A stretch of 64,000 nucleotides of DNA, from positions 9,080,001 through 9,144,000 of the forward strand of contig NZ_CP069526.1 in the NCBI RefSeq assembly GCF_016889705.1, given 5' to 3'. Position numbers and translations under genes: made by a program. Source of the DNA: Amycolatopsis sp. FDAARGOS 1241 (lineage in GTDB: Bacteria; Actinomycetota; Actinomycetes; Mycobacteriales; Pseudonocardiaceae). The notes under the pieces are model-generated. The model ran no database searches and was not told where the DNA came from. It saw only the letters and a program-made list of their open reading frames with translations. Positions 53,185-64,000 of this stretch are shown here, piece after piece. Within the stretch, counting starts at the first letter, position 1. The number at the start of each line of letters is the position of its first letter.

Positions 53185-53949
53185 TCAGCTGCCCATTCCG
53201 AGCCGGGCACCACCGGCGACGTCGAGGCTCAACCCGGTGAGGTAACGGTTTTCCGGGTCGGTGAGGAAGGCGATGGTCGCCGCGACTTCCTCCGGTTCGG
53301 CGAACCGGCCCATCGGGATCTGCGCGGCCCGAGCTTGGCGGGCGCGCCGGTCGCCGTCGGGGTCGCCGCCAGCGGCGCGGGTGGCGAGCTGGTCCCACAT
53401 GGCGGTGTTGACCGGGCCGGGGCAGACGCAGTTGACCGACACGTTGTCCGGGCCGAGCACCAAAGCCAGCGACCAGCACACATTCAGTACGGCCGCCTTG
53501 CTGGCGTTATAGGGCACATACGCGCGCCGGGCCTCTTTCGCGGCGACGGAGGCCACCGCCACCATCGCGCCGGAGCGCTGGGCCTGCATGACCAGCCCGA
53601 CCTCGCGCAGCACAGAGAATGCGCCTGTCGCGTTGATGCCCATCACACGCGCGAATTCGGCGCTCGGCGTGGCGAGCAGATCGGGTACGGCGCCGAGAAT
53701 TCCCGCGGCGTGCACGAGAACGTCGATCGCTCCGAACTCCTGCCGAATCCCAGCCACGACGGCCTGCACGGCCTGTTCGTCGGTGATGTCGAGCTCGCGG
53801 AAGTCCGCGAGCCACCCTGGGCGGCTGTCTGGTGCGGTGCGGTCGCAGCCGATGACCACGGCGCCCGTTGCGTGCAGACGTCGTGCGGTGGCGGCACCGA
53901 TGCCTCCGCTGGACCCAGTGACCAGCGCGACGCGGGAGGGGCCGGTCAT
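53185..53949 (-). CDS. Short-chain dehydrogenase/reductase
   Basis: A 254-aa classical SDR. TGSSGGIG at ~11-18 binds NAD(P); the catalytic set is Ser in VAVASVA, Tyr-Lys in YNASK; the NINATGAF-type Asn motif (GINATG) and PGPVNT are present. ATG 53949 overlaps the transporter stop (ATGA). It is the last gene of the seven-gene island operon and would oxidise or reduce a hydroxyl/keto group of the imported compound. Confidence 0.93.
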   Translation of the reverse strand: MTGPSRVALVTGSSGGIGAATARRLHATGAVVIGCDRTAPDSRPGWLADFRELDITDEQAVQAVVAGIRQEFGAIDVLVHAAGILGAVPDLLATPSAEFARVMGINATGAFSVLREVGLVMQAQRSGAMVAVASVAAKEARRAYVPYNASKAAVLNVCWSLALVLGPDNVSVNCVCPGPVNTAMWDQLATRAAGGDPDGDRRARQARAAQIPMGRFAEPEEVAATIAFLTDPENRYLTGLSLDVAGGARLGMGS

Positions 53950-55322
53950 CGGACGTCCTCCGTCGCCGTCGGCGCGGCGGTCGCGGTGGCGCGCTTGCCG
54001 GAGGCGCCGGTCTCCGGCAGCGTCAGGTACACGACGAGGCAGAGCGCGACGATGATCGTCATGTACACCGCGACACCCATCGGGTGCCCGGCGTCGAGGA
54101 AGGCGCTGGCGATGAGCGGAGCTGTCCCGCCGAGGGCAGCGATCACGAGCTGGTGGGCCACGCCAATGCCGGACACGCGCACGGCCGCCGGGAACAGGTC
54201 GGCCTGGATCGTCGGGTAGACCGCCTGCCAGATCGCCAGAACCACCCAGCCCGACGCGGTCACGATCACGTACACGCCGAATCCGGGCTGCCGCAACAGC
54301 AACAGCAACGGATAGAAAGCCACGACCATGCCGATTGCCCCAATGATCGGGAAGGGCTTGCGCCGGCCGAGGCGGTCGGACAGCGCACCGCATAGCGGCA
54401 CGATGACCACCAGCAGGCCCAGCCCAATGGCGTTTCCGGTCAGGGTGGAGGCCAGGGCGCGTCCCGTGGTGACATGCGCGTAGGTCGGGAGGAAGGTCGC
54501 CCACGTGTAATAGGCGACGGTCGGGGCCGATAGCGCCGCGGTCTGCAGCAGAGCTTTGGGGTGGTTGCGCAGCAGTTCCCGCAGCCTCGAGCGGGCCGGC
54601 TGCCGGACAACGGAGGTGTTTTCCACCTCCGCCTCGAATTCCGGGGATTCGTCGGCGCGCGAGCGCACGAGCAAGCCCACGACACCAAGAACGCCGCCGA
54701 TCGCGAACGGGATGCGCCATCCCCACGCCGCGAGGTCGTGGCTGTCGAGGGTCGAGGTCATGATCGCCGCGATGCCGGTGGCGGCCAGCGTCGCCAGACC
54801 GCTGGCCATGTTCGACAGGGAGCCGAACAGCCCGCGCCGGTTGGTCGAGCCGTTTTCGACCATGTAGGCGATGGCGCTCTGCATCTCGCTGCCGGACGAG
54901 ATGCCCTGCAGGACGCGCGCAAGGACGAACAGCAGTGGCGCCCCGTAGCCGATGACGGAGAACGGCGGCGTGAGCGCGATGATCAGGCTGCCGCCTGCCA
55001 TGCCGCCGATGGTGGCGGCCAGAATGACGCGACGGCCGTAGCGGTCAGCCAGAGGTGAGATGACGAAGCCGCTCAACGGCCGCACCACGAACCCGATCGC
55101 ATAGGTGACCAAGGCTGAGACCAGCGGCGTGAACGCGGTGCTCGGGAAGATCTGATCGGCGAAGACGGCGGCCAGGACGCCGTAGACGTACCAGTCGTAC
55201 CACTCGACGAAATGGCCGATGGTGCCCGCCAGCATGTTGGTCGCCGTGCGGCGGGGCGCGACGGCCGGGTGGCCGGTGGGCTCGACGGCCCTGGGCGGGC
55301 TGTTCTTTCGTGCGGTCGCCAT
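53946..55322 (-). CDS. MHS-family (MFS) metabolite:H+ symporter
   Basis: A 458-aa twelve-helix transporter. The metabolite-H+ symporter signature is strong: IGHFVEWYDWYVYG near the N-terminus, PLADRYGRRVIL in loop 2-3, and SDRLGRRKPFP in loop 8-9. Relatives carry shikimate, citrate, 2-oxoglutarate, proline or betaine, that is, small acids. ATG 55322 follows GAGGAG. It is the only transporter in the island, so it probably imports the pathway substrate. Confidence 0.93.
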   Translation of the reverse strand: MATARKNSPPRAVEPTGHPAVAPRRTATNMLAGTIGHFVEWYDWYVYGVLAAVFADQIFPSTAFTPLVSALVTYAIGFVVRPLSGFVISPLADRYGRRVILAATIGGMAGGSLIIALTPPFSVIGYGAPLLFVLARVLQGISSGSEMQSAIAYMVENGSTNRRGLFGSLSNMASGLATLAATGIAAIMTSTLDSHDLAAWGWRIPFAIGGVLGVVGLLVRSRADESPEFEAEVENTSVVRQPARSRLRELLRNHPKALLQTAALSAPTVAYYTWATFLPTYAHVTTGRALASTLTGNAIGLGLLVVIVPLCGALSDRLGRRKPFPIIGAIGMVVAFYPLLLLLRQPGFGVYVIVTASGWVVLAIWQAVYPTIQADLFPAAVRVSGIGVAHQLVIAALGGTAPLIASAFLDAGHPMGVAVYMTIIVALCLVVYLTLPETGASGKRATATAAPTATEDVR

Positions 55323-55396
55323 TGAACGCTCCTCGGTCGGTGAGGGGTGGGTCGGCGCCAGGCCGCCGCTTGCGGCGAGGCTGGGTTTCTAACGGG

Positions 55397-56374
55397 TCAG
55401 CGGGTCGCGTGGCTGGACCAGGCCCGGCCCTCTTGCTCTTGCACCGGAAGCCCGGCTGCTTGCAGGATCTGGTCGAGAAGTGCTTGTGTGCGTGCGGCTT
55501 CCCGCCCGGACGTCAGCGGTGCGCCACGGTCGCGGACGCGGTCGAGGAAGTGGTGGACGGCCGCGGCGAAGCCGAAGGTGTTCGTCGCGGTGGCCCAGCC
55601 GAACGCCTCGGGACTCATGGAGCGCACGGTGCTCACGCCGTCCCGGGTCAGGGTCACGGTGTCCGGTGCGACCACCTCGGCCGAGCGCTGTGCTCCGTAG
55701 GCGTCGAGTTTCTCCGCCCACGAGCCCGCGTTCCGCGCGGCTGTCAGGACGCCGGTGCCGCCGCCGGCGAATCGCACCAGGGCGGACACTCCGTCTTCCT
55801 GCCAGGGGTCGTCGCCGGCGGCGTGCGCGGACACGTCGACCGGTTCACCCGGGCAGAACCAGCGCAGCAGATCGACCATGTGGATGGCGTTCTCGAACGT
55901 CGCGCGGTACTCGCTGCCGCGCCGGTTCTTCTGCGCGACGCAGAATCCCGCGCCCGCATCGCCGAACTGCTCGCGGGCGGCGACGTAGGTCGGGGCGAAC
56001 CGACGGTTGAACCCGACCATCAGCACCCGGCCGCGCTCGTCGGCGATGTCCGCAAGCCGCTCCGCGTCGGACGTCGCGGTCGCGAGGGGTTTCTCGCAGA
56101 AGACGTCGACGTTCGCCTCCAGTGCACAGCGCACGCCTGCGACATGCTCTGATCTGGGCGTCAGGACGAACATCGCATCCAGGTCGCGCTCGAGCGCGTG
56201 CTCAACCGTCGGCACCGCCGCGGCGAATCCCCAGCGACGCACGAGGTCGGATGGATCCTCGCGCCGGGACACCAGGACCTCGAGCACGACGTCGTCCCGC
56301 TCCGCCAGGGTGGGCAGCTGCGCGATGTGCGCGATGTTCCCGGCACCGACGACCCCGACCCGCAGCCGGCTCAT
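55397..56374 (-). CDS. Gfo/Idh/MocA-family oxidoreductase 1
   Basis: A 325-aa NAD(P)-dependent sugar or cyclitol dehydrogenase. Rossmann motif VGVVGAGNIAHIAQL; the family EKPLA motif (VFCEKPLATAT); GFNRRFAPTY; and substrate-site HMVDLLRW with the conserved His-x-x-Asp. ATG 56374 shares a base with the TIM-barrel gene stop (TGATG). Together with that isomerase it is the typical pair for cyclitol or 3-keto-sugar pathways. Confidence 0.92.
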   Translation of the reverse strand: MSRLRVGVVGAGNIAHIAQLPTLAERDDVVLEVLVSRREDPSDLVRRWGFAAAVPTVEHALERDLDAMFVLTPRSEHVAGVRCALEANVDVFCEKPLATATSDAERLADIADERGRVLMVGFNRRFAPTYVAAREQFGDAGAGFCVAQKNRRGSEYRATFENAIHMVDLLRWFCPGEPVDVSAHAAGDDPWQEDGVSALVRFAGGGTGVLTAARNAGSWAEKLDAYGAQRSAEVVAPDTVTLTRDGVSTVRSMSPEAFGWATATNTFGFAAAVHHFLDRVRDRGAPLTSGREAARTQALLDQILQAAGLPVQEQEGRAWSSHATR

Positions 56375-57279
56375 CAGGACTCCCCCGCCGGTGCGAGCCC
56401 GGCTTCGGCGACGAGCGAACGCAGCGCGCGGGCGGATCGGGCGAACCCCTCCGCCGGAGGCGGCAAGTCCTGTGGGTGCCAGCGGTACTCGTACTCGAGG
56501 CTGAGGACCTCGTCATAGCCCTGGTGCCGGATCGCGCGCAGGATCTCGGCCCAGGGCAGGATTCCCTCGCCCACGACGCGGGAGCGCACGGCGCGTTCCT
56601 CCGGTTTCACCCGGGCCGTCTCGGACGCGACGAACGGCGCGTCCGGATCGGTGAAGACGAGGTCTTTGACGTGGACGTGCCCGATCAGGTCGCCCTGCTC
56701 CTGCAGCGCCTCCGGCCACGCCTCGTCGTGGGTGAAGGCGAGGTTCGCCTGGTCGTAGAGGACGCGCACAGCCGGCGAGCCGACCTCGCGCACCAGCCGC
56801 GCGGTCCCTGCGGCCGATTGCGTCATAGTTCCGAAGTGGTTTTCCACGCACAACCGCACTCCCGCGGCGGCGGCGCGAGGCGCGAGTTCCAACAGCCCGG
56901 AGCGGAGGCGCTCCCAATGTCCGGCGTGGTCGGTCCGGTCCGGGGCCCAGGACCCCGCGTACACCCGGATCCTGGTCGCGCCCACGCGGTGAGCGCAGTC
57001 CACGGCCGCGCGCAGCTCGTCGAGCGCGGCCCGCCGCTGCGCCGGATCCGCATGGTTGATCCCCGTGGTGTAGGGAGCCAGCCCCACCACCGGCACACCG
57101 AGACCGTCCGCGACACGGGCCGCTTCGTCCGCGGCGGCCTCATCCCCGACCGCAAGCCCGCTGCGGTACCCGTTCTGGTAGATGACTTCTGCGCCGTCGA
57201 GACCCGCGGAGGCGAACAGCTCCAGCGCCTCGGGAACGGTCTGTTCCGGAGTGCCGAGGGTGTGGCCGGCGATGCGCAT
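56374..57279 (-). CDS. Xylose-isomerase-like TIM-barrel protein (sugar isomerase/epimerase)
   Basis: A 301-aa AP-endonuclease-2/xylose isomerase-fold enzyme. ATG 57279 overlaps the VOC gene stop (TAATG); the longer open frame is antisense. Metal-site residues are visible in LCVENHFGT (Glu), VLYDQANLAF (Asp), IGHVHVKDL (His) and VLSLEYEYRW (Glu). Family members isomerise or epimerise sugars or cyclitols, eliminate from 3-keto-glycosides, or dehydrate dehydroshikimate. The direct neighbour VOC protein and Gfo/Idh enzymes fit any of these. Confidence 0.9.
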   Translation of the reverse strand: MRIAGHTLGTPEQTVPEALELFASAGLDGAEVIYQNGYRSGLAVGDEAAADEAARVADGLGVPVVGLAPYTTGINHADPAQRRAALDELRAAVDCAHRVGATRIRVYAGSWAPDRTDHAGHWERLRSGLLELAPRAAAAGVRLCVENHFGTMTQSAAGTARLVREVGSPAVRVLYDQANLAFTHDEAWPEALQEQGDLIGHVHVKDLVFTDPDAPFVASETARVKPEERAVRSRVVGEGILPWAEILRAIRHQGYDEVLSLEYEYRWHPQDLPPPAEGFARSARALRSLVAEAGLAPAGES

Positions 57280-57818
57280 TACAGGTCCTTTCCGGTTCGG
57301 GAGGGGCCGGCCCAGTCGGCGGGCTCGACAAGCGGGGGCGGGTTGTGGACGCGGGATCTGTCGACCAGCTCCAGCATCAAGCCCCACGGGGCCCTCAGGT
57401 AGGTCCACCGGTTCCCGGCGACGAGCGGGCTGTCCGGTCCGACTTCCTTGGTCCCGCCGAGCACGCGGGCGCCATGCGACTGAAGGTGCTCGACGGCCGC
57501 GTCGACGTCCTCCACGGCGAAGCACAGGTGGTGGCCACCGGCATCTGAGTGCCGCGGATGGTCCGACTGGCGGTCTGCGCTCCACCACTGGAACAGCTCG
57601 ACGTTCAGGTTGGGCGGCATGCGCAACATCGCCAGTTCCAGCCGCGCGTCGGCCGGTACCTCGAAATGCTCGGGCATGAACTCGGGGTCTGGCCCGCGCG
57701 CTGACCGGTACAGTTCCTCCGCGCCCAGTGCCTCGACGAAGAACGCGACCGCTTCGGCGAGGTCGGGCACGGTGAAACCGACGTGGTCGACGTAACGGAA
57801 CCCGGCAGGCAGGCTCAT
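57279..57818 (-). CDS. VOC-superfamily (glyoxalase/dioxygenase-fold) protein
   Basis: A 179-aa protein with two beta-alpha-beta-beta-beta units: YVDHVGFTVPDLAEAVAFF with metal His, and HHLCFAVEDVDAAVEHL with the second His, then LMLELVDR with the Glu. A full metal triad argues for an active enzyme: lyase, isomerase, epimerase or dioxygenase. It overlaps LacI (ATGA) and the TIM-barrel gene (TAATG). VOC domains fused or adjacent to TIM-barrel partners are known in dehydroshikimate dehydratases, a useful comparison. Confidence 0.87.
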   Translation of the reverse strand: MSLPAGFRYVDHVGFTVPDLAEAVAFFVEALGAEELYRSARGPDPEFMPEHFEVPADARLELAMLRMPPNLNVELFQWWSADRQSDHPRHSDAGGHHLCFAVEDVDAAVEHLQSHGARVLGGTKEVGPDSPLVAGNRWTYLRAPWGLMLELVDRSRVHNPPPLVEPADWAGPSRTGKDL

Positions 57819-58813
57819 CGCGGCGCCTCCGCGGTCGACGCCCGGACCAGCAGGTCCGGGGAAAGTACGACGTGCCGCGCCTCCCCGTCTGCCAGGAGCT
57901 TCTCGGCGAGGTCGATGGCGATCGCGCCCATGTCGGCGATGGGCTGGCGCACCGTGGTCAGCCGCGGGTTGAACCGCGCGCCTAGCTCCAGACCGTCGAA
58001 GCCCATGACGGACACCTCGTGCGGGACCGACACGCCTCGTGCGCCGAGCGCGGAGACGAACGCGAACGCGACCATGTCGTTGGCCGCGATCACTGCGGTC
58101 GGGCGCTGCCCGCGGGTCAGGCCAGCGAACCGCTCGGCGGCGCGCTCGCCCGCTTCCGGCCCGCTACCGGTGTCCAGGACTGTCGCCGGCATCTCCAGCT
58201 CCGCTGCGAGCGCCTCGTAGGCCGCCAACCGGTCCCGGGAGGTGTACGTCCCGGAAATCCCCGACACGTAGGCGATGCGCCGGTGCCCCAGTTCGCGCAG
58301 GTGCTCCACCGCTAGCGCGATCCCTGCCGCGCTGTCCACCGTCACCGTCGGCACGCTCGCCTGCTCGACCCGGTCGACGACGACGACCCTGCTGCCGAGC
58401 GCGACGTTCTGCAGCTCGTCGAGATCCACGCTGGTCGACGGCGCGACTATCCCGAATGGCGCGTACATCCCTTCCAGCGCCGTCAGATACGCGTTGGTCT
58501 GGGCCGACTCGCCGCCGGACACGCACAAGACCAGCTGGTATCCCCGCTCGGCCGCGGCCGACGCCATGGTCTTGGCCAGCTCCCCATAAAACGGGTTGGT
58601 GATGTCCGGGACAATCAGCGGGATCAGGTTGCTCGTCTTGCGCCGCAACGCCTGCGCCAGCGGGCTCATGCGGTAGCCCAGGCTCTCGGCCACTTCCAGG
58701 ACGTGCTGCCGGGTTTTCGCATTCACGGCTTCCGGCCGGGAGAACGCGCGCGACACCGTCGAACGGTGCACCCCCGCCCGCGCCGCGACGTCGTCGATGC
58801 TCACCTCAGCCAA
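57815..58813 (-). CDS. LacI-family transcriptional repressor
   Basis: A 332-aa regulator. The TTG at 58813 is chosen: GGAGGT lies five bases upstream, and the frame then reads LAEVSIDDVAARAGVHRSTVSRAFS, the canonical LacI helix-turn-helix and hinge. The periplasmic-binding-type sugar domain follows (LIPLIVPDITNPFYGEL, VSGGESAQTN, VMGFDGLELG). It lies inside the operon and should control it from tandem sites near 59.88 kb. It overlaps the end of the oxidoreductase gene by 13 bases. Confidence 0.93.
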   Translation of the reverse strand: MAEVSIDDVAARAGVHRSTVSRAFSRPEAVNAKTRQHVLEVAESLGYRMSPLAQALRRKTSNLIPLIVPDITNPFYGELAKTMASAAAERGYQLVLCVSGGESAQTNAYLTALEGMYAPFGIVAPSTSVDLDELQNVALGSRVVVVDRVEQASVPTVTVDSAAGIALAVEHLRELGHRRIAYVSGISGTYTSRDRLAAYEALAAELEMPATVLDTGSGPEAGERAAERFAGLTRGQRPTAVIAANDMVAFAFVSALGARGVSVPHEVSVMGFDGLELGARFNPRLTTVRQPIADMGAIAIDLAEKLLADGEARHVVLSPDLLVRASTAEAPR

Positions 58814-59802
58814 GGCTGACCTCCTGAAACCGCAACGGAGGACTGCTCGTAGGCAGCCCAGATCAGGCGCATTGTCTCGCTGAGCTCGCTCAGCGTGGGC
58901 AGCCCGGCGAATCCCTCGGTCCACGTCTGCGACACCCGCCGGACGAACACGTCGTACAGCGGGTCGCTGTCCACCTCGACGAAGCTCGACTCCGCGGCGC
59001 CATCCGCCGCCCGCGTGAACGAGACCTGGCCGGTGGTGCCGATGTCGACGTAGCCCTCGCCGCCGGCGCTGGTGTAGGAGCAGTACCGCTTGGCCGCACT
59101 CGCCGGGAAGGCGTAGCCCACCTCGATGATCGCCTCGCTGCCGTCATCGCCGGCCAGCACGAGCGTCGCGTGATCCTCGACGTCCCCGCGGTGCAGGCTC
59201 GCGGACAGACGAGCCGCCGCGAGTTCGACACGCCGGGCGCCGCTGCGCCGCAGAAAGAGGTCCACGAAGTGCGGCCCGAGGTTGACCAGGCATCCCCCGC
59301 CGGAGCGGGCGGGATCGAGCATCCATGGGCAACCCGCGTCCAGGTAGCGCTCCGGCGGACCGGCCACGAAACTCGCCCGTTGGTAGGTCGGCGCGCCAGC
59401 CAGGGAAAGAGCCTGGTCCACCGGCCCCCCGCGCTGGACGAACGGAACGGTCGCCGCGACACCTGCCGACGCGGCCGCGTCCCGGATCCGCTCGACGTCG
59501 TCGGGCCCCAACCCGCCCGGCTTCTCGACCACGAACGGGACGTCGCGGTCGACCAAAGCCAGGCAGATCTCGGACATGCGATCGTGCGACCCGAACACAT
59601 AGGCCAGATCCCACGGCCCGGCGTCCAGCGCCGCGGCGACCTCCCCGGTGACCGAAGCGCCGAGGCGCCGGGCAATTCCCGCGACCTGATCGGGTGCGTC
59701 GTCCTGGACCAGCACGACGTCGTGCGTCTCTGCCCAGGCGTCCACGTACAACGGCACATGCCAATGCCGAGCGCCTAGAACGACTGTTCGCGGACGTCTC
59801 AC
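58801..59802 (-). CDS. Gfo/Idh/MocA-like oxidoreductase 2, atypical nucleotide motif
   Basis: A 333-aa protein, first gene of the island operon. GTG 59802 follows GGGAGG at six bases. VVEKPGGLGPDD is the family Lys-Pro motif and NLGPHFVDLFL matches the substrate-site helix. The N-terminal strand, VVLGARHWHVPLY, lacks the usual GxGxxG cofactor loop, so cofactor binding may differ or activity be reduced. It shares little with the other Gfo/Idh copy, so it is not a recent duplicate. Confidence 0.85.
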   Translation of the reverse strand: MRRPRTVVLGARHWHVPLYVDAWAETHDVVLVQDDAPDQVAGIARRLGASVTGEVAAALDAGPWDLAYVFGSHDRMSEICLALVDRDVPFVVEKPGGLGPDDVERIRDAAASAGVAATVPFVQRGGPVDQALSLAGAPTYQRASFVAGPPERYLDAGCPWMLDPARSGGGCLVNLGPHFVDLFLRRSGARRVELAAARLSASLHRGDVEDHATLVLAGDDGSEAIIEVGYAFPASAAKRYCSYTSAGGEGYVDIGTTGQVSFTRAADGAAESSFVEVDSDPLYDVFVRRVSQTWTEGFAGLPTLSELSETMRLIWAAYEQSSVAVSGGQPWLR

Positions 59803-59876
59803 CGCGCGCCTCCCGCCTCGATCCGGATCGCCTTCCGCGGCTTCCACCGCTCCCGTCCGACCTCGGCACCAACTTA

Positions 59877-59902
59877 TGAGATCGGTTGCTGAGATCGGTT
59901 GC
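59877..59902. promoter_or_regulatory. Tandem 13-bp repeats, probable LacI-family operators
   Basis: TGAGATCGGTTGC occurs twice back to back (59877-59889, 59890-59902) in the gap between the divergent island operon and the aldolase gene. The second copy continues into TCGGT-TGCAAT-ACCGA, an inverted pair. Position fits control of both directions by the island LacI protein. This is inference from layout. Confidence 0.6.
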
Positions 59903-59971
59903 AATACCGAAGCAGAGGGTCCTAAGCTTTGTCAACACCAACCCCCCGCCCCGACCCCGTGAGGTGACTTG

Positions 59972-60613
59972 ATGCGCAAGCTGCGCACCCTGACGACCGT
60001 GTACGACACAGGCACCGTGCTGATCGTGCGCCTGCCCACCGCCGAAGCGTCGTACGAGGTGGCGCGCGAGGCCGTCGCCGGCGGGATACGTGCGGTCGAG
60101 GTCACGCTCACGACGCCGGGCGCCCTCGACGTGATCCGCCGGTTGAACGCCGAATGCCCCGAAGCCGAGGTGGGCGCCGGCAGCGTGCTGGACGCCGAGT
60201 CCGCCTACGCCAGCATCCAGGCCGGCGCCCGATTCCTCGTCAGCCCTCACGTCGACCGCGGCATGCTCGAAACCGCTGGGCGCTACCAGGTCGTCAGCAT
60301 CTGCGGAGCGGCGACACCGACGGAAATCGTCCAAGCGGCCAGCGCCGGAGCCGACATGGTCAAGCTGTTCCCCTCCTCGTTCCTCAACCGCGACTACGCC
60401 CGGGCGGTCCTCGAACCGCTCGCCCACATCCCCCTCGTCCCGGCAGGCGGCGTCTCCCCCGGCAACCTGTCCGACTGGTTTGACGCCGGGGTAACAGCGG
60501 TCGGAGTCGGCAGCTTCATCACCAAAGCGGCACGACGAGAAACCACCGAGCAGTACCCGGTGCGCGCAGCGGCCCGCACATTTCTCCAGGCGGTCGCCGA
60601 TGCCCGAGCCTGA
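59972..60613 (+). CDS. KDPG/KHG-type aldolase
   Basis: A 213-aa class I aldolase. The Schiff-base Lys is in ADMVKLFPSS, the catalytic Glu in VEVTLTTPGAL, and phosphate/carboxylate contacts in GAGSVLD and PAGGVSPGNL. It cleaves a 2-keto-3-deoxy acid (6-phosphate) to pyruvate and an aldehyde, or acts on a related keto acid. ATG 59972 follows GAGG. It is divergent from the operon and shares the operator region, so it should be co-regulated and supply the final cleavage step. Confidence 0.92.
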   Translation: MRKLRTLTTVYDTGTVLIVRLPTAEASYEVAREAVAGGIRAVEVTLTTPGALDVIRRLNAECPEAEVGAGSVLDAESAYASIQAGARFLVSPHVDRGMLETAGRYQVVSICGAATPTEIVQAASAGADMVKLFPSSFLNRDYARAVLEPLAHIPLVPAGGVSPGNLSDWFDAGVTAVGVGSFITKAARRETTEQYPVRAAARTFLQAVADARA

Positions 60614-61220
60614 CCCCCTGACCGCCGAGCCGCCGCCGGCTTTCGTCACGATCGGCCCTGCCGGCTCTGGAAAGTCTTACGTGGCAAAAAAGCTCGCGCA
60701 ACGACTGCGCGCCGCCTACCTCGACAAGGACTCCATCGCTGGAGAACTCGTGGACGCGGCACTAGAACTGGCCGGCCGCCGAGCGGGCGGCCGCGAAGAC
60801 GACGCCACCTATCTCGAGCGGCTCATGCCAGCCGAATACGCTGCCGTGTTCACGACAGCCGCCGACAACCTGCGGCTCGGCCTTCCCGTAGTCCTCGATG
60901 CACCATTCGCGGCTTACCTAGGCGACCCGGACTTCCTGACCACCTCCGCCAACCGAGCCCAATGGCCCGCAACAACACCAATCGTCGTGGTCGAAGTACG
61001 AGCTTCCGCCCAGACCGTCCACACGCGACTGACTCAGCGAGGCCTCACTCGCGACCGCGCCAAACTCGCCGACTGGCCCACGTTTTGGACACAACTGGGA
61101 ACCCAGGACTGCGTCTGGTCCGGCACACGACACGTCGCCGTCGACAACGAGGGAGAACCGGACCTCGGCGTCGTCACGGAGATTGCCGGGCGTGCCGGGT
61201 TCGGTGGCAGCACCACCTAA
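60600..61220 (+). CDS. P-loop kinase / AAA-type ATPase, 206 aa
   Basis: A small P-loop protein overlapping the aldolase gene by 14 bases. Walker A is IGPAGSGKSYVA; YLDKDSIAGEL gives the Asp typical of sugar or small-molecule kinases of the gluconokinase/zeta-toxin/chloramphenicol-phosphotransferase type; VVLDAPFAAYL is the Walker B-like strand; TRLTQRGLTRDR is a basic lid. With the aldolase it might phosphorylate a keto-deoxy acid or gluconate-like sugar, but a stand-alone role is equally open. Confidence 0.8.
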   Translation: MPEPDPLTAEPPPAFVTIGPAGSGKSYVAKKLAQRLRAAYLDKDSIAGELVDAALELAGRRAGGREDDATYLERLMPAEYAAVFTTAADNLRLGLPVVLDAPFAAYLGDPDFLTTSANRAQWPATTPIVVVEVRASAQTVHTRLTQRGLTRDRAKLADWPTFWTQLGTQDCVWSGTRHVAVDNEGEPDLGVVTEIAGRAGFGGSTT

Positions 61221-61531: not shown

Positions 61532-62617
61532 CTAGTGTCGTGAGTCGTTAATTAGTTGGCAGTATGCGGAGAGGGTTTCCAGGATCTGGTCGGCTGGCTT
61601 GGTCCAGACGAACGGTTTCGGGTCGGCGTTCCATTCGTTGATCCAGCACCGGACGTCGCGTTCGAGTTCGGTGACGCTGCGATGGGCTGAGCGGCGCAGC
61701 TTGCGGTTGGTCAGTTCGGCGAACCATCGTTCGACCAGGTTCAGCCAGGAACTGCTGGTCGGTGTGAAGTGCAGGTGGAACCGCGGGTGCCGGATCAGCC
61801 ATTCCTTGACCTTGGGTGTCTTGTGGGTGGCGTAGTTGTCCAGCACCAGATGCAGGTCCAGGTCTTTCGGGACCGCGGCATCGATCAGCTTCAGGAACCG
61901 CAGGAACTCCTGATGGCGATGTCGACGGTAGTGCTGTGCGATCACCGAGCCGCTGGAGATGTCGAAGGCGGCGAACAGGCTGGTGGTGCCGTGCCGGACG
62001 TAGTCGTGGGTCATCCGTGCCGGGGTGGTGGGCATGATCGGCAGAATCGGTGCGGTGCGATCGATCGCCTGCATCTGGGATTTCTCGTCGACCGCGAGGA
62101 CCAGCGCGTTCTCGGGTGGGCTCATGTAGAGGCCGACGACATCGCGGACCTTGTCCACGAATTGCGGGTCCGTGGACAGTTTCCAGGTCTCGATCGCGTG
62201 CGGTTTGAGCCCGAATGCCCGCCAGATCCGCGAGATCGCTGACTGCGACATCCCCGTGGCCGAGGCCATCGAGCGAGTCGACCAGTGCGTGTCCTGGCCC
62301 GGCGTTTCCTCCAGCGTCTTGGTGATCACCGCGTCCACCCGCTCGTCAGTGATCAGGCGCGGCCGGCCAGGGCGAGGCTCATCCGACAAACCCTCCAGCC
62401 GGTCTTCGGCAAACCGCGACCGCCATTTCGACACCGTGTTCCGTGAGACACCCACATCCCCGGCGACCTCGCCGATCGACCCGCCCTCGGCGCAGCGCAA
62501 CACAATCCGGGCTCGCAACGCCAGCGCCTGCGCGGTCTTGCGGCGACGCGCCCACCCGGTCAACACCGACCGTTCCTCATCAGAGAGCACCACGGGGTCA
62601 AGCTTCGGGCTCGGCAT
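61532..62617 (-). CDS. IS630-family transposase
   Basis: A 361-aa DDE transposase (ATG 62617; two GTG codons upstream are alternative starts). The N-terminal helix-turn-helix regions include SIGEVAGDVGVSRNTVSKW and RPRLITDERVDAV. The catalytic set is Asp in LAVDEKSQ, Asp in LVLDNYATHK, and Glu in SSSWLNLVERWFAEL. It is uninterrupted and probably active. Its TAG stop is completed by the duplicated TA target and one flanking base outside the inverted repeat. Confidence 0.95.
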   Translation of the reverse strand: MPSPKLDPVVLSDEERSVLTGWARRRKTAQALALRARIVLRCAEGGSIGEVAGDVGVSRNTVSKWRSRFAEDRLEGLSDEPRPGRPRLITDERVDAVITKTLEETPGQDTHWSTRSMASATGMSQSAISRIWRAFGLKPHAIETWKLSTDPQFVDKVRDVVGLYMSPPENALVLAVDEKSQMQAIDRTAPILPIMPTTPARMTHDYVRHGTTSLFAAFDISSGSVIAQHYRRHRHQEFLRFLKLIDAAVPKDLDLHLVLDNYATHKTPKVKEWLIRHPRFHLHFTPTSSSWLNLVERWFAELTNRKLRRSAHRSVTELERDVRCWINEWNADPKPFVWTKPADQILETLSAYCQLINDSRH

Positions 62618-62660
62618 CACCACACCCTACAGCTGCCCACGAACTACCGACTCAGGACAC
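61535..62660 (-). mobile_element. Complete IS630-family insertion sequence, 1126 bp
   Basis: Terminal inverted repeats GTGTCGTGAGTCGTTAATT (left) and, on the other strand, GTGTCCTGAGTCGGTAGTT (right) match at 16 of 19 positions. TA is duplicated on both sides within CTAG (61532-61535 and 62660-62663), the usual IS630 target. One full-length transposase fills it. Confidence 0.92.
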
Positions 62661-63572: not shown

Positions 63573-64000
63573 CGGATCATCCCCGCGTCCACGGGGAACA
63601 CTCACCTCACGAAGTGGCTGATTCCGAACTCACGGGATCATCCCCGCGTCCGCGGGGAGCACGTCGGCGAGGACTTCGGGAGCGACCGGCTTCACGGATC
63701 ATCCCCGCGTCCGCGGGGAGCATCAGTGCCGCGGCGCGGACGGCGCCACGCCGGACGGATCATCCCCGCGTCCGCGGGGAGCACGCCGAGCGGGTCGGCT
63801 TCGGCGGAATCGTCGCCGGATCATCCCCGCGTCCGCGGGGAGCACCGCCGTCGTCCCACCGTTCGTTGACCCACTGCGGATCATCCCCGCGTCCGCGGGG
63901 AGCACACGAGGTCGCGGTACTCGGCGGCGGACAGCTGCGGATCATCCCCGCGTTCGCGGGGAGCACCGCTCACAGCACGACAAGCGGCGCTCCAGCGCCG
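63573..64000 (-). CRISPR. Type I-E-like CRISPR array, trailer end; continues past window
   Basis: Seven 29-bp repeats begin at 63573, 63634, 63695, 63756, 63817, 63877 and 63938. On the minus strand the consensus starts GTGCTCCCCGCGGACGCGGG and ends GATGATCCG, typical of actinobacterial I-E arrays. Spacers are 32 bp (one 31). The leftmost repeat has two changes (ACGGGGAACAC on the plus strand) and the third and seventh have one, so the degenerate trailer is on the left and the leader plus cas genes should lie to the right, outside the window. Confidence 0.95.

Follow-up and report, generated by a model that had tools for sequence, protein, structure and literature searches.

A LacI-type operator marks a widespread actinobacterial gene cluster with a KDPG-type aldolase that may break down a quinate-type acid

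To our knowledge, the known routes of quinate and shikimate catabolism all run through protocatechuate or gallate. PMC7144000 describes the conversion of quinate to protocatechuate. A second described system, the levoglucosan set LgdA-LgdB1-LgdB2-LgdC, combines two Gfo/Idh oxidoreductases with xylose-isomerase-like TIM barrels and often ABC transporters, and its enzymes perform oxidation, elimination, hydration and reduction according to PMC7676230 and PMC10066097. Here we analyse a nine-gene locus with a tandem operator in Amycolatopsis sp. FDAARGOS 1241, contained in a window of 64,000 nucleotides (9,080,001-9,144,000 of contig 1 in a 9.8-Mb assembly). With the levoglucosan system it shares the Gfo/Idh pair and the TIM barrel, but it adds a VOC protein, a kinase, a KDPG-type (2-keto-3-deoxy-6-phosphogluconate) aldolase, an SDR or AroE-like enzyme, an MHS carrier and a LacI regulator, and it misses the LgdA cut-off. 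With QuiC-type quinate and shikimate catabolism it shares the MHS carrier, the SDR or AroE-family dehydrogenase and a TIM-barrel enzyme, and a relative of its Gfo B protein occurs in such a cluster (locus L041); unlike that route, no AroQ or QuiC-like match was found in the stretches of the full clusters other than the window, and the ending is a kinase and an aldolase, not an aromatic ring. Finally, the PF01081/TIGR01182 aldolase with an adjoining kinase recalls an Entner-Doudoroff-type ending, whereas no acid dehydratase of the usual families was found among the nine genes with Pfam and NCBIfam, and the kinase is of the P-loop type.

The locus belongs to the redox-assisted catabolic clusters with an Entner-Doudoroff-like ending, and a non-aromatic, quinate-type substrate is plausible for it. 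The complete statement, namely that a LacI-repressed, horizontally spread regulon breaks down a polyhydroxylated organic acid, likeliest quinate or a closely related cyclohexane-polyol acid (shikimate or dehydroquinate, for example), by the steps proposed below, is put forward tentatively. Open-reading-frame listing, translation and Pfam searches agreed with the initial annotation of this DNA on nine genes at 53185-61220 of the window:

53185..53949, minus strand: SDR dehydrogenase (PF13561, 175.5 bits)
53946..55322, minus strand: MHS-type metabolite:H+ symporter of the MFS (TIGR00883, 314.3 bits, under the cut-off of 443.45)
55397..56374, minus strand: Gfo/Idh/MocA oxidoreductase A, Gfo A (PF01408, 70.4 bits)
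56374..57279, minus strand: xylose-isomerase-like TIM barrel, TIM1, with a predicted ketose-epimerase/IolE-like fold (PF01261, 153.8 bits)
57279..57818, minus strand: VOC protein with a predicted glyoxalase-I-like fold (PF13669, 61 bits)
57815..58813, minus strand: LacI-family regulator (PF00356, 45.5 bits; PF13377, 119.8 bits)
58801..59805, minus strand: Gfo/Idh/MocA oxidoreductase B, Gfo B, the cluster marker (PF22725, 38.5 bits)
59877..59903, minus strand: tandem LacI-type operator of two 13-bp units between the divergent units (sequence pattern)
59930..59935, minus strand: TTGACA, probable -35 element of the Gfo B operon promoter (from sequence)
59972..60613, plus strand: class I aldolase of the KDPG/KHG (2-keto-4-hydroxyglutarate) type (PF01081, 120.8 bits, cut-off 27.8; TIGR01182, 156.2 bits, cut-off 156.05)
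60600..61220, plus strand: P-loop (AAA_33) small-molecule kinase (PF13671, 54.6 bits)

The seven minus-strand genes had been described as overlapping, which holds for overlaps of 1-14 bp between same-strand neighbours but not for MHS and Gfo A, which lie 74 bp apart. For LacI, the TTG at 58813 is favoured as the start, from a GGAGG upstream. The aldolase is the only one of the nine proteins over a curated NCBIfam cut-off, that of the general aldolase subfamily TIGR01182, by a margin of 0.15 bits, and Gfo B matched no NCBIfam model. The earlier assignment of an MHS-type carrier together with a KDPG-type aldolase was thus upheld.

An operator region shared by the divergent genes had also been proposed, and the Gfo B-aldolase spacer indeed holds a tandem site, TGCAACCGATCTCA followed by GCAACCGATCTCA, which forms the 27-bp operator. 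At up to two mismatches per unit, the tandem recurs in 43 of the 46 full clusters defined below (91 sites, overlapping ones counted separately), whereas five block-shuffled versions of these loci gave no site; the clusters without it are L037, L043 and L040, the last of which keeps one exact unit. Its commonest 10-mers are common to 39 of the 41 spacers that could be compared, with L037, L043, L077, L092 and L093 having no short spacer between Gfo B and the aldolase. In other clusters the same operator also precedes the genes for the MHS carrier, for a CUT1 ABC importer and for a third Gfo/Idh protein. Counting tandems no more than 300 bp upstream, Gfo B and the aldolase have one in 42 clusters, MHS in 32, the third Gfo/Idh in 5 and the ABC solute-binding gene in 3; whole genomes supplied seven further promoters of the solute-binding gene, and all seven carry the tandem about 170-185 bp before it. 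L092 and L093 have the tandem between MHS and an operon of the aldolase, the kinase, an AroE-like protein and a second SDR (SDR2). The single unit TGNAAYCGATCTCA occurs once in the genome of the window. Furthermore, the 26-mer pattern was present in 1 of 394 genomes of the class, namely this one, and in 22 of 26 searched cluster-bearing genomes or records (47 sites), the 26 being only part of the cluster-bearing genomes. The LacI regulator, missing from the title of the initial annotation, is the key to the regulon. It passes the family test with both PF00356 (helix-turn-helix) and PF13377 (sensor) over cut-off, and TGCAACCGATCTCA fits a palindrome-type operator. The consensus for LacI-family operators is, we assume, of the TGNNANCGNTNNCA type. 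Judged from sequence, this repressor would be the obvious reader of the tandem site.

The neighbourhood survey suggested with the initial annotation recovered the seven-gene core (Gfo B, LacI, VOC, TIM1 and Gfo A, with the aldolase and the P-loop kinase on the opposite strand) in all 46 full clusters, drawn from about a dozen actinobacterial genera. Since a full cluster is defined by the core itself, an estimate free of this bias comes from a scan of GTDB r220 contigs with a Gfo B profile, in which 41 of the 43 loci returned have it. Gene presence was scored by identity thresholds set per gene, 38-60%. By tblastn, these 41 loci have Gfo B, LacI, VOC, TIM1 and Gfo A in a single order, with the aldolase and kinase divergent. 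In L037 and L043 this arrangement is interrupted by ABC and third Gfo/Idh genes, and some genes match in two pieces in L013, L037 and L038. The exceptions without the full core, L041 (Gfo B 44% identical) and L046 (36%, on a 6.7-kb contig), were left out of the 46, which comprise the 41 scanned loci, two from plasmids (L077 and L088), two relatives in which the operon of aldolase and kinase is found beyond Gfo A instead (L092 and L093), and the window. Plasmid records of Herbiconiux KACC 21604 (a near-twin) and Rhodococcus opacus NZ_CP130956 that carry cluster genes stand outside this count. The genera named are Streptomyces, Sinomonas, Arthrobacter, Pseudarthrobacter, Paenarthrobacter, Specibacter, Rothia, Luteimicrobium, Paractinoplanes, Rhodococcus and Herbiconiux, together with that of the window. 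The gene set is conserved far beyond chance. Together with the recurring operator, its constancy supports the earlier view of one co-regulated, uncharacterised catabolic system, and we regard a single functional regulon as almost certain.

The spread of the cluster is patchy. Of 7,995 candidates scored in a homologue search with Gfo B, 316 proteins qualified, and identities among the 120 listed homologues step from the protein of the window itself to 72-80% and then to about 55-60%. When 298 relatives of the window genome, including its own assembly G000, were searched with Gfo B, 170 had a Gfo/Idh match at E 1e-3, and E < 1e-80 was reached only in G000, G037 and G050. A quick tree built from four concatenated core proteins places the window with Streptomyces loci, and G037 and G050, which belong to its own genus, with a Herbiconiux plasmid. 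This distribution and these placements point to horizontal transfer of the cluster. A DDE_3/HTH_32 transposase gene at 61532-62623 of the window, just past the kinase, is consistent with a horizontally acquired cluster. Three genomes carry two copies each, namely Arthrobacter P2b (L008, L014), Pseudarthrobacter GA104 (L018, L031) and Arthrobacter ISL-85 (L034, L035); in GA104, ABC and TIM2/SDR2 genes are found near only one of them. A CRISPR-type array near the window end (63573-63969) has a 32-nt GGATCATCCCCGCGTCCGCGGGGAGCAC-like repeat, present 7 times and spaced at 60-61 nt.

Outside the core, MHS was present in 42 of the 46 clusters, and SDR2 and a second TIM barrel (TIM2) in 30 each. Neither of the latter two has a close copy in the genome of the window, where the best SDR matches reach 36-37% and the TIM2 query finds only TIM1 (27%); their role as necessary parts was therefore rejected, and they are treated as accessory. 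SDR2 is 82-90% identical to the L020 copy (71% in L077) and TIM2 74-92% to the L007 copy, for example in L007, L020, L088 and L092. Such high conservation between genera might reflect a module that moves on its own, but this is no more than a hint, the core genes having been compared with a different query, the window.

A variable position of the cluster bears on its substrate. The SDR is encoded in 39 of the 46 clusters, a protein of the shikimate dehydrogenase family (AroE-like) takes its place in 6 (L008, L011, L014, L042, L092, L093), no cluster has both, and one has neither (L029, on a 6.9-kb contig, labelled as SDR in the exchange tree). The AroE-like gene follows Gfo A in the Arthrobacter loci and lies between the kinase and SDR2 in L092 and L093. 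On the tree, strongly supported branches force at least two changes between the two enzymes, and the fewest changes possible are three. This exchange suggests that the SDR and the AroE-like enzyme catalyse the same step. The AroE-like protein passes Pfam Shikimate_dh_N (53.4 against 27 bits) and keeps a lysine and an aspartate that we take to be its catalytic residues. Furthermore, at 6 of 9 loci examined for its relatives at 59-65% identity (L089, L090, L099, L100, L102, L104), QuiC-like, AroQ and/or pca genes lie no further than 8 kb away; the nine were drawn from the best 20 of 550 records, and three of them, being unannotated, were judged by tblastn alone. The exchangeable step and the company of these relatives lead us to a quinate-type acid as substrate or intermediate, a proposition that we hold at slightly below even confidence.

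The initial annotation had linked TIM1 and VOC to dehydroshikimate dehydratase, and its hint at dehydroshikimate chemistry gains indirect support from the AroE-like substitution in 6 of 46 clusters; the idea that TIM1 and VOC form a split dehydratase is not supported. Under the classical route from quinate or shikimate to protocatechuate, these two proteins would act as a split 3-dehydroshikimate dehydratase alongside the MHS carrier and the SDR or AroE-type enzyme. TIM1 is distantly QuiC-like, and 5hmq, a fusion of a TIM barrel with HPPD, stands at rank 50 among the fold matches of its predicted model. However, the TIM1 score of 21.5 bits lies far under the 1200-bit QuiC cut-off (NF042435), a strict one to be sure, as L041 and the window genome have QuiC-like proteins that reach 615.7 and 591.2. 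Moreover, no AroQ or QuiC-like match (E 1e-10) occurs in the 6.9-25 kb stretches of the 45 full clusters other than the window, and an aromatising route would presumably leave the conserved kinase and aldolase idle. We consider this explanation improbable.

The folds of the two central enzymes were modelled. TIM1 (pLDDT, the predicted local distance difference test, 89.6) is predicted to be a barrel of the ketose-epimerase/IolE/keto-glucal-hydratase type and VOC (pLDDT 80.1) to adopt a glyoxalase-I-like fold, and structure searches of both yield folds, not substrates. Families of these types typically enolise carbonyl substrates on a metal. The same enzyme families serve in known Gfo/Idh-TIM pathways, that is, the breakdown of levoglucosan (LGDH), inositol (iol) and C-glycosides or 3-keto-glycosides, and the predicted TIM1 fold has the 2-hydroxy-3-keto-glucal hydratase 8ro4 and IolE structures among its matches. 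Gfo A likewise matches DgpA proteins, with DgpA1 (9m3d) at 56 bits over residues 1-134 only. Against an identity with the levoglucosan or inositol pathway, Gfo A scores 42.1 bits versus 650 for LgdA and 91.8 versus 355 for IolG, TIM1 scores 40.6 versus 290 for IolE, and in the levoglucosan isolate Paenarthrobacter LG01, whose cluster is L028, contig C12 carries the gene that exceeds the LgdA cut-off and C67 the cluster. That the locus is simply one of them is very improbable.

The other end of the pathway is firmer. The aldolase motifs (V/L)E(V/I)TL and (V/L)K(L/V)FP are conserved in all nine aligned members and hold, we presume, the catalytic glutamate and the Schiff-base lysine of KDPG/KHG aldolases; the position aligned with a threonine of the PDB KDPG aldolases shown is alanine in all nine. 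More distant relatives of Gfo B occur with other endings. On rhizobial and agrobacterial plasmids, loci L111 (8259-25225) and L112 (4952-20486) share with the cluster Gfo B (30%), TIM2 (64-65%), SDR2 (75%), a sugar-type ABC importer and shikimate-dehydrogenase-family enzymes, of which there are two. They also encode an SMP-30 lactonase, and they differ from the cluster in having a DHDPS-family aldolase and a 2-keto-4-pentenoate hydratase instead of the KDPG aldolase and kinase, and, in L111, an IclR-type regulator annotated beside the ABC genes instead of LacI. We know of no pathway to which this L111/L112 cluster has been assigned. On Burkholderiales plasmids, Gfo B (32-33%) directly follows a 'shikimate dehydrogenase' at all four loci examined (L079, L084, L085, L086), in a conserved block with FAH-family, 2-keto-4-pentenoate hydratase, IclR and MFS genes; it also encodes a 231-aa protein without a Pfam match where tested (L079). 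The plasmid search with Gfo B covered the best 20 of 32 records. In L041, from a Blastococcus metagenome-assembled genome, Gfo B lies beside QuiC-like, AroQ, MHS and AroE-like genes, another Gfo/Idh and a LigB-type dioxygenase. The company that Gfo B keeps in L041, L111/L112 and the four Burkholderiales loci speaks for the quinate-type reading. VOC homologues were also looked at in four loci elsewhere, whose contexts (beta-hydroxyaspartate cycle, ketoacid dehydrogenase, mixed) shared no theme. The constant kinase and KDPG-type aldolase here, with parallel endings elsewhere (DHDPS-family aldolase; FAH-family), would make a 2-keto-3-deoxy acid the common intermediate, and the pathway probably ends in a 2-keto-3-deoxy-acid aldolase step.

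On this basis, we propose the following steps, of which the substrate, the order and every intermediate are our interpretation. The acid would be taken up by the MHS carrier, or elsewhere by the CUT1 ABC importer, and the SDR, or the AroE-like enzyme in other clusters, would oxidise one ring hydroxyl. Gfo A and Gfo B, with the metal-type enolising TIM1 and VOC, may then convert the keto intermediate, by ring opening or rearrangement and without aromatisation, to an open-chain 2-keto-3-deoxy-4-hydroxy acid; a chemically natural option would be the retro-aldol opening of 3-dehydroquinate to 4,5-dihydroxy-2,6-dioxoheptanoate, a product that on chemical grounds falls in the substrate class of this aldolase family. 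The P-loop kinase would phosphorylate the open chain or a reduced form of it, the KDPG-type aldolase would release pyruvate and a phosphorylated aldehyde, and an inducer derived from the substrate would free LacI from the tandem operator. Such a non-aromatic route, splitting quinate or shikimate to pyruvate instead of protocatechuate, with parallel rhizobial and Burkholderia versions that have other endings, is possible but doubtful in this full form. A variant in which dehydroquinate synthase runs in reverse to DAHP (3-deoxy-D-arabino-heptulosonate 7-phosphate) and erythrose 4-phosphate was dropped as strongly uphill by estimate (a reversed diol dehydration); on paper it was attractive, dehydroquinate plus water being a 3-deoxy-heptulosonate. 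The literature matches listed for KDPGal (2-keto-3-deoxy-6-phosphogalactonate) aldolase with DAHP did not contain 'KDPGal aldolase', and the part of PMC10992092 available has nothing on it.

Several observations weigh against a quinate-type substrate. The MHS carrier falls below the cut-off of the shikimate transporter ShiA (NF007414; 193.9 against 538), and the AroE-like protein misses the equivalog cut-offs of AroE (125.5 against 200.2) and of quinate/shikimate dehydrogenase (76.8 against 349). Its nearest solved structure, 4k28, is named merely 'shikimate dehydrogenase family protein', and the next is 5-ketofructose reductase, a sugar enzyme. Of the nine loci examined for its relatives, three (L091, L101, L103) have no QuiC-like, AroQ or pca genes within 8 kb, L099 has AroQ only, and in L100 the AroQ match is split in two. 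In Agrobacterium (L078, L087), Gfo B occurs with a sugar-type ABC importer, Gfo and SDR, with no shikimate dehydrogenase in the stretch. A QuiC-like gene (591.2 bits) is already present in the genome of the window, as is a separate cluster of dehydroshikimate dehydratase, AroQ, SDR and MHS. The notion that the SDR and MHS of the window are close paralogues of those in that cluster was rejected, as the latter came 12th and 17th in the own-genome searches, in which the query is first. The cluster itself (L109 7935-12520; genome positions 1,687,934-1,692,519) encodes a dehydroshikimate-dehydratase-like TIM barrel, AroQ, SDR, MHS and a divergent LacI. CUT1 importers normally transport sugars, and the presence of such a sugar-type ABC importer in the regulon speaks for a sugar-like molecule. 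Most problematic for our proposal is the kinase, which would be better suited to a primary alcohol, a group that opened dehydroquinate lacks.

For this last reason, the quinate-type reading has a serious rival of nearly equal weight, a route for a C6 sugar acid, uronide or glycoside, to which we give guarded credence. Here the Gfo/Idh pair, TIM1 and VOC would carry out a redox-assisted isomerisation or dehydration of a hexonate or uronate to a 2-keto-3-deoxy-hexonate, which the kinase would convert to KDPG or a stereoisomer for the aldolase to split into pyruvate and glyceraldehyde 3-phosphate. Gluconokinase-type kinases phosphorylate a primary alcohol, and the best, weak family matches of the kinase are gluconokinases (24.4 bits against 113.75). 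The importer just mentioned, the likeness of the predicted TIM1 fold to ketose 3-epimerases, the membership of 5-ketofructose reductase in the AroE family and an altronate-dehydratase-family gene in three of the four Burkholderiales loci (L084, L085 and L086, not L079) also fit. Nevertheless, this route leaves unexplained why an AroE-like enzyme whose relatives often lie beside QuiC-like, AroQ or pca genes replaces the SDR, and among the nine genes Pfam and NCBIfam showed none of the usual sugar-acid dehydratase families. An aldonic or uronic acid or an aryl glycoside, suggested in the initial annotation, is likewise a candidate substrate; overall, the earlier interpretation is upheld in part.

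Among the publications listed in literature searches for the gene set or the route, none matched, judged by titles and the beginnings of abstracts, in line with the earlier remark that no named pathway has this exact set. The available main text of the levoglucosan paper PMC10066097 does not contain the word 'aldolase'; from the part available, one of its two induced regions may overlap this cluster.

Quinate and shikimate are abundant plant acids. If true, a second, non-aromatic route for them in several soil genera would change the modelling of root- and litter-derived carbon, and it would bring new enzymes for the ring opening of cyclohexane-polyol acids. Even with a sugar acid as substrate, the cluster would represent a widespread, tightly regulated and as yet unassigned pathway, and its operator makes screening for the inducer straightforward.

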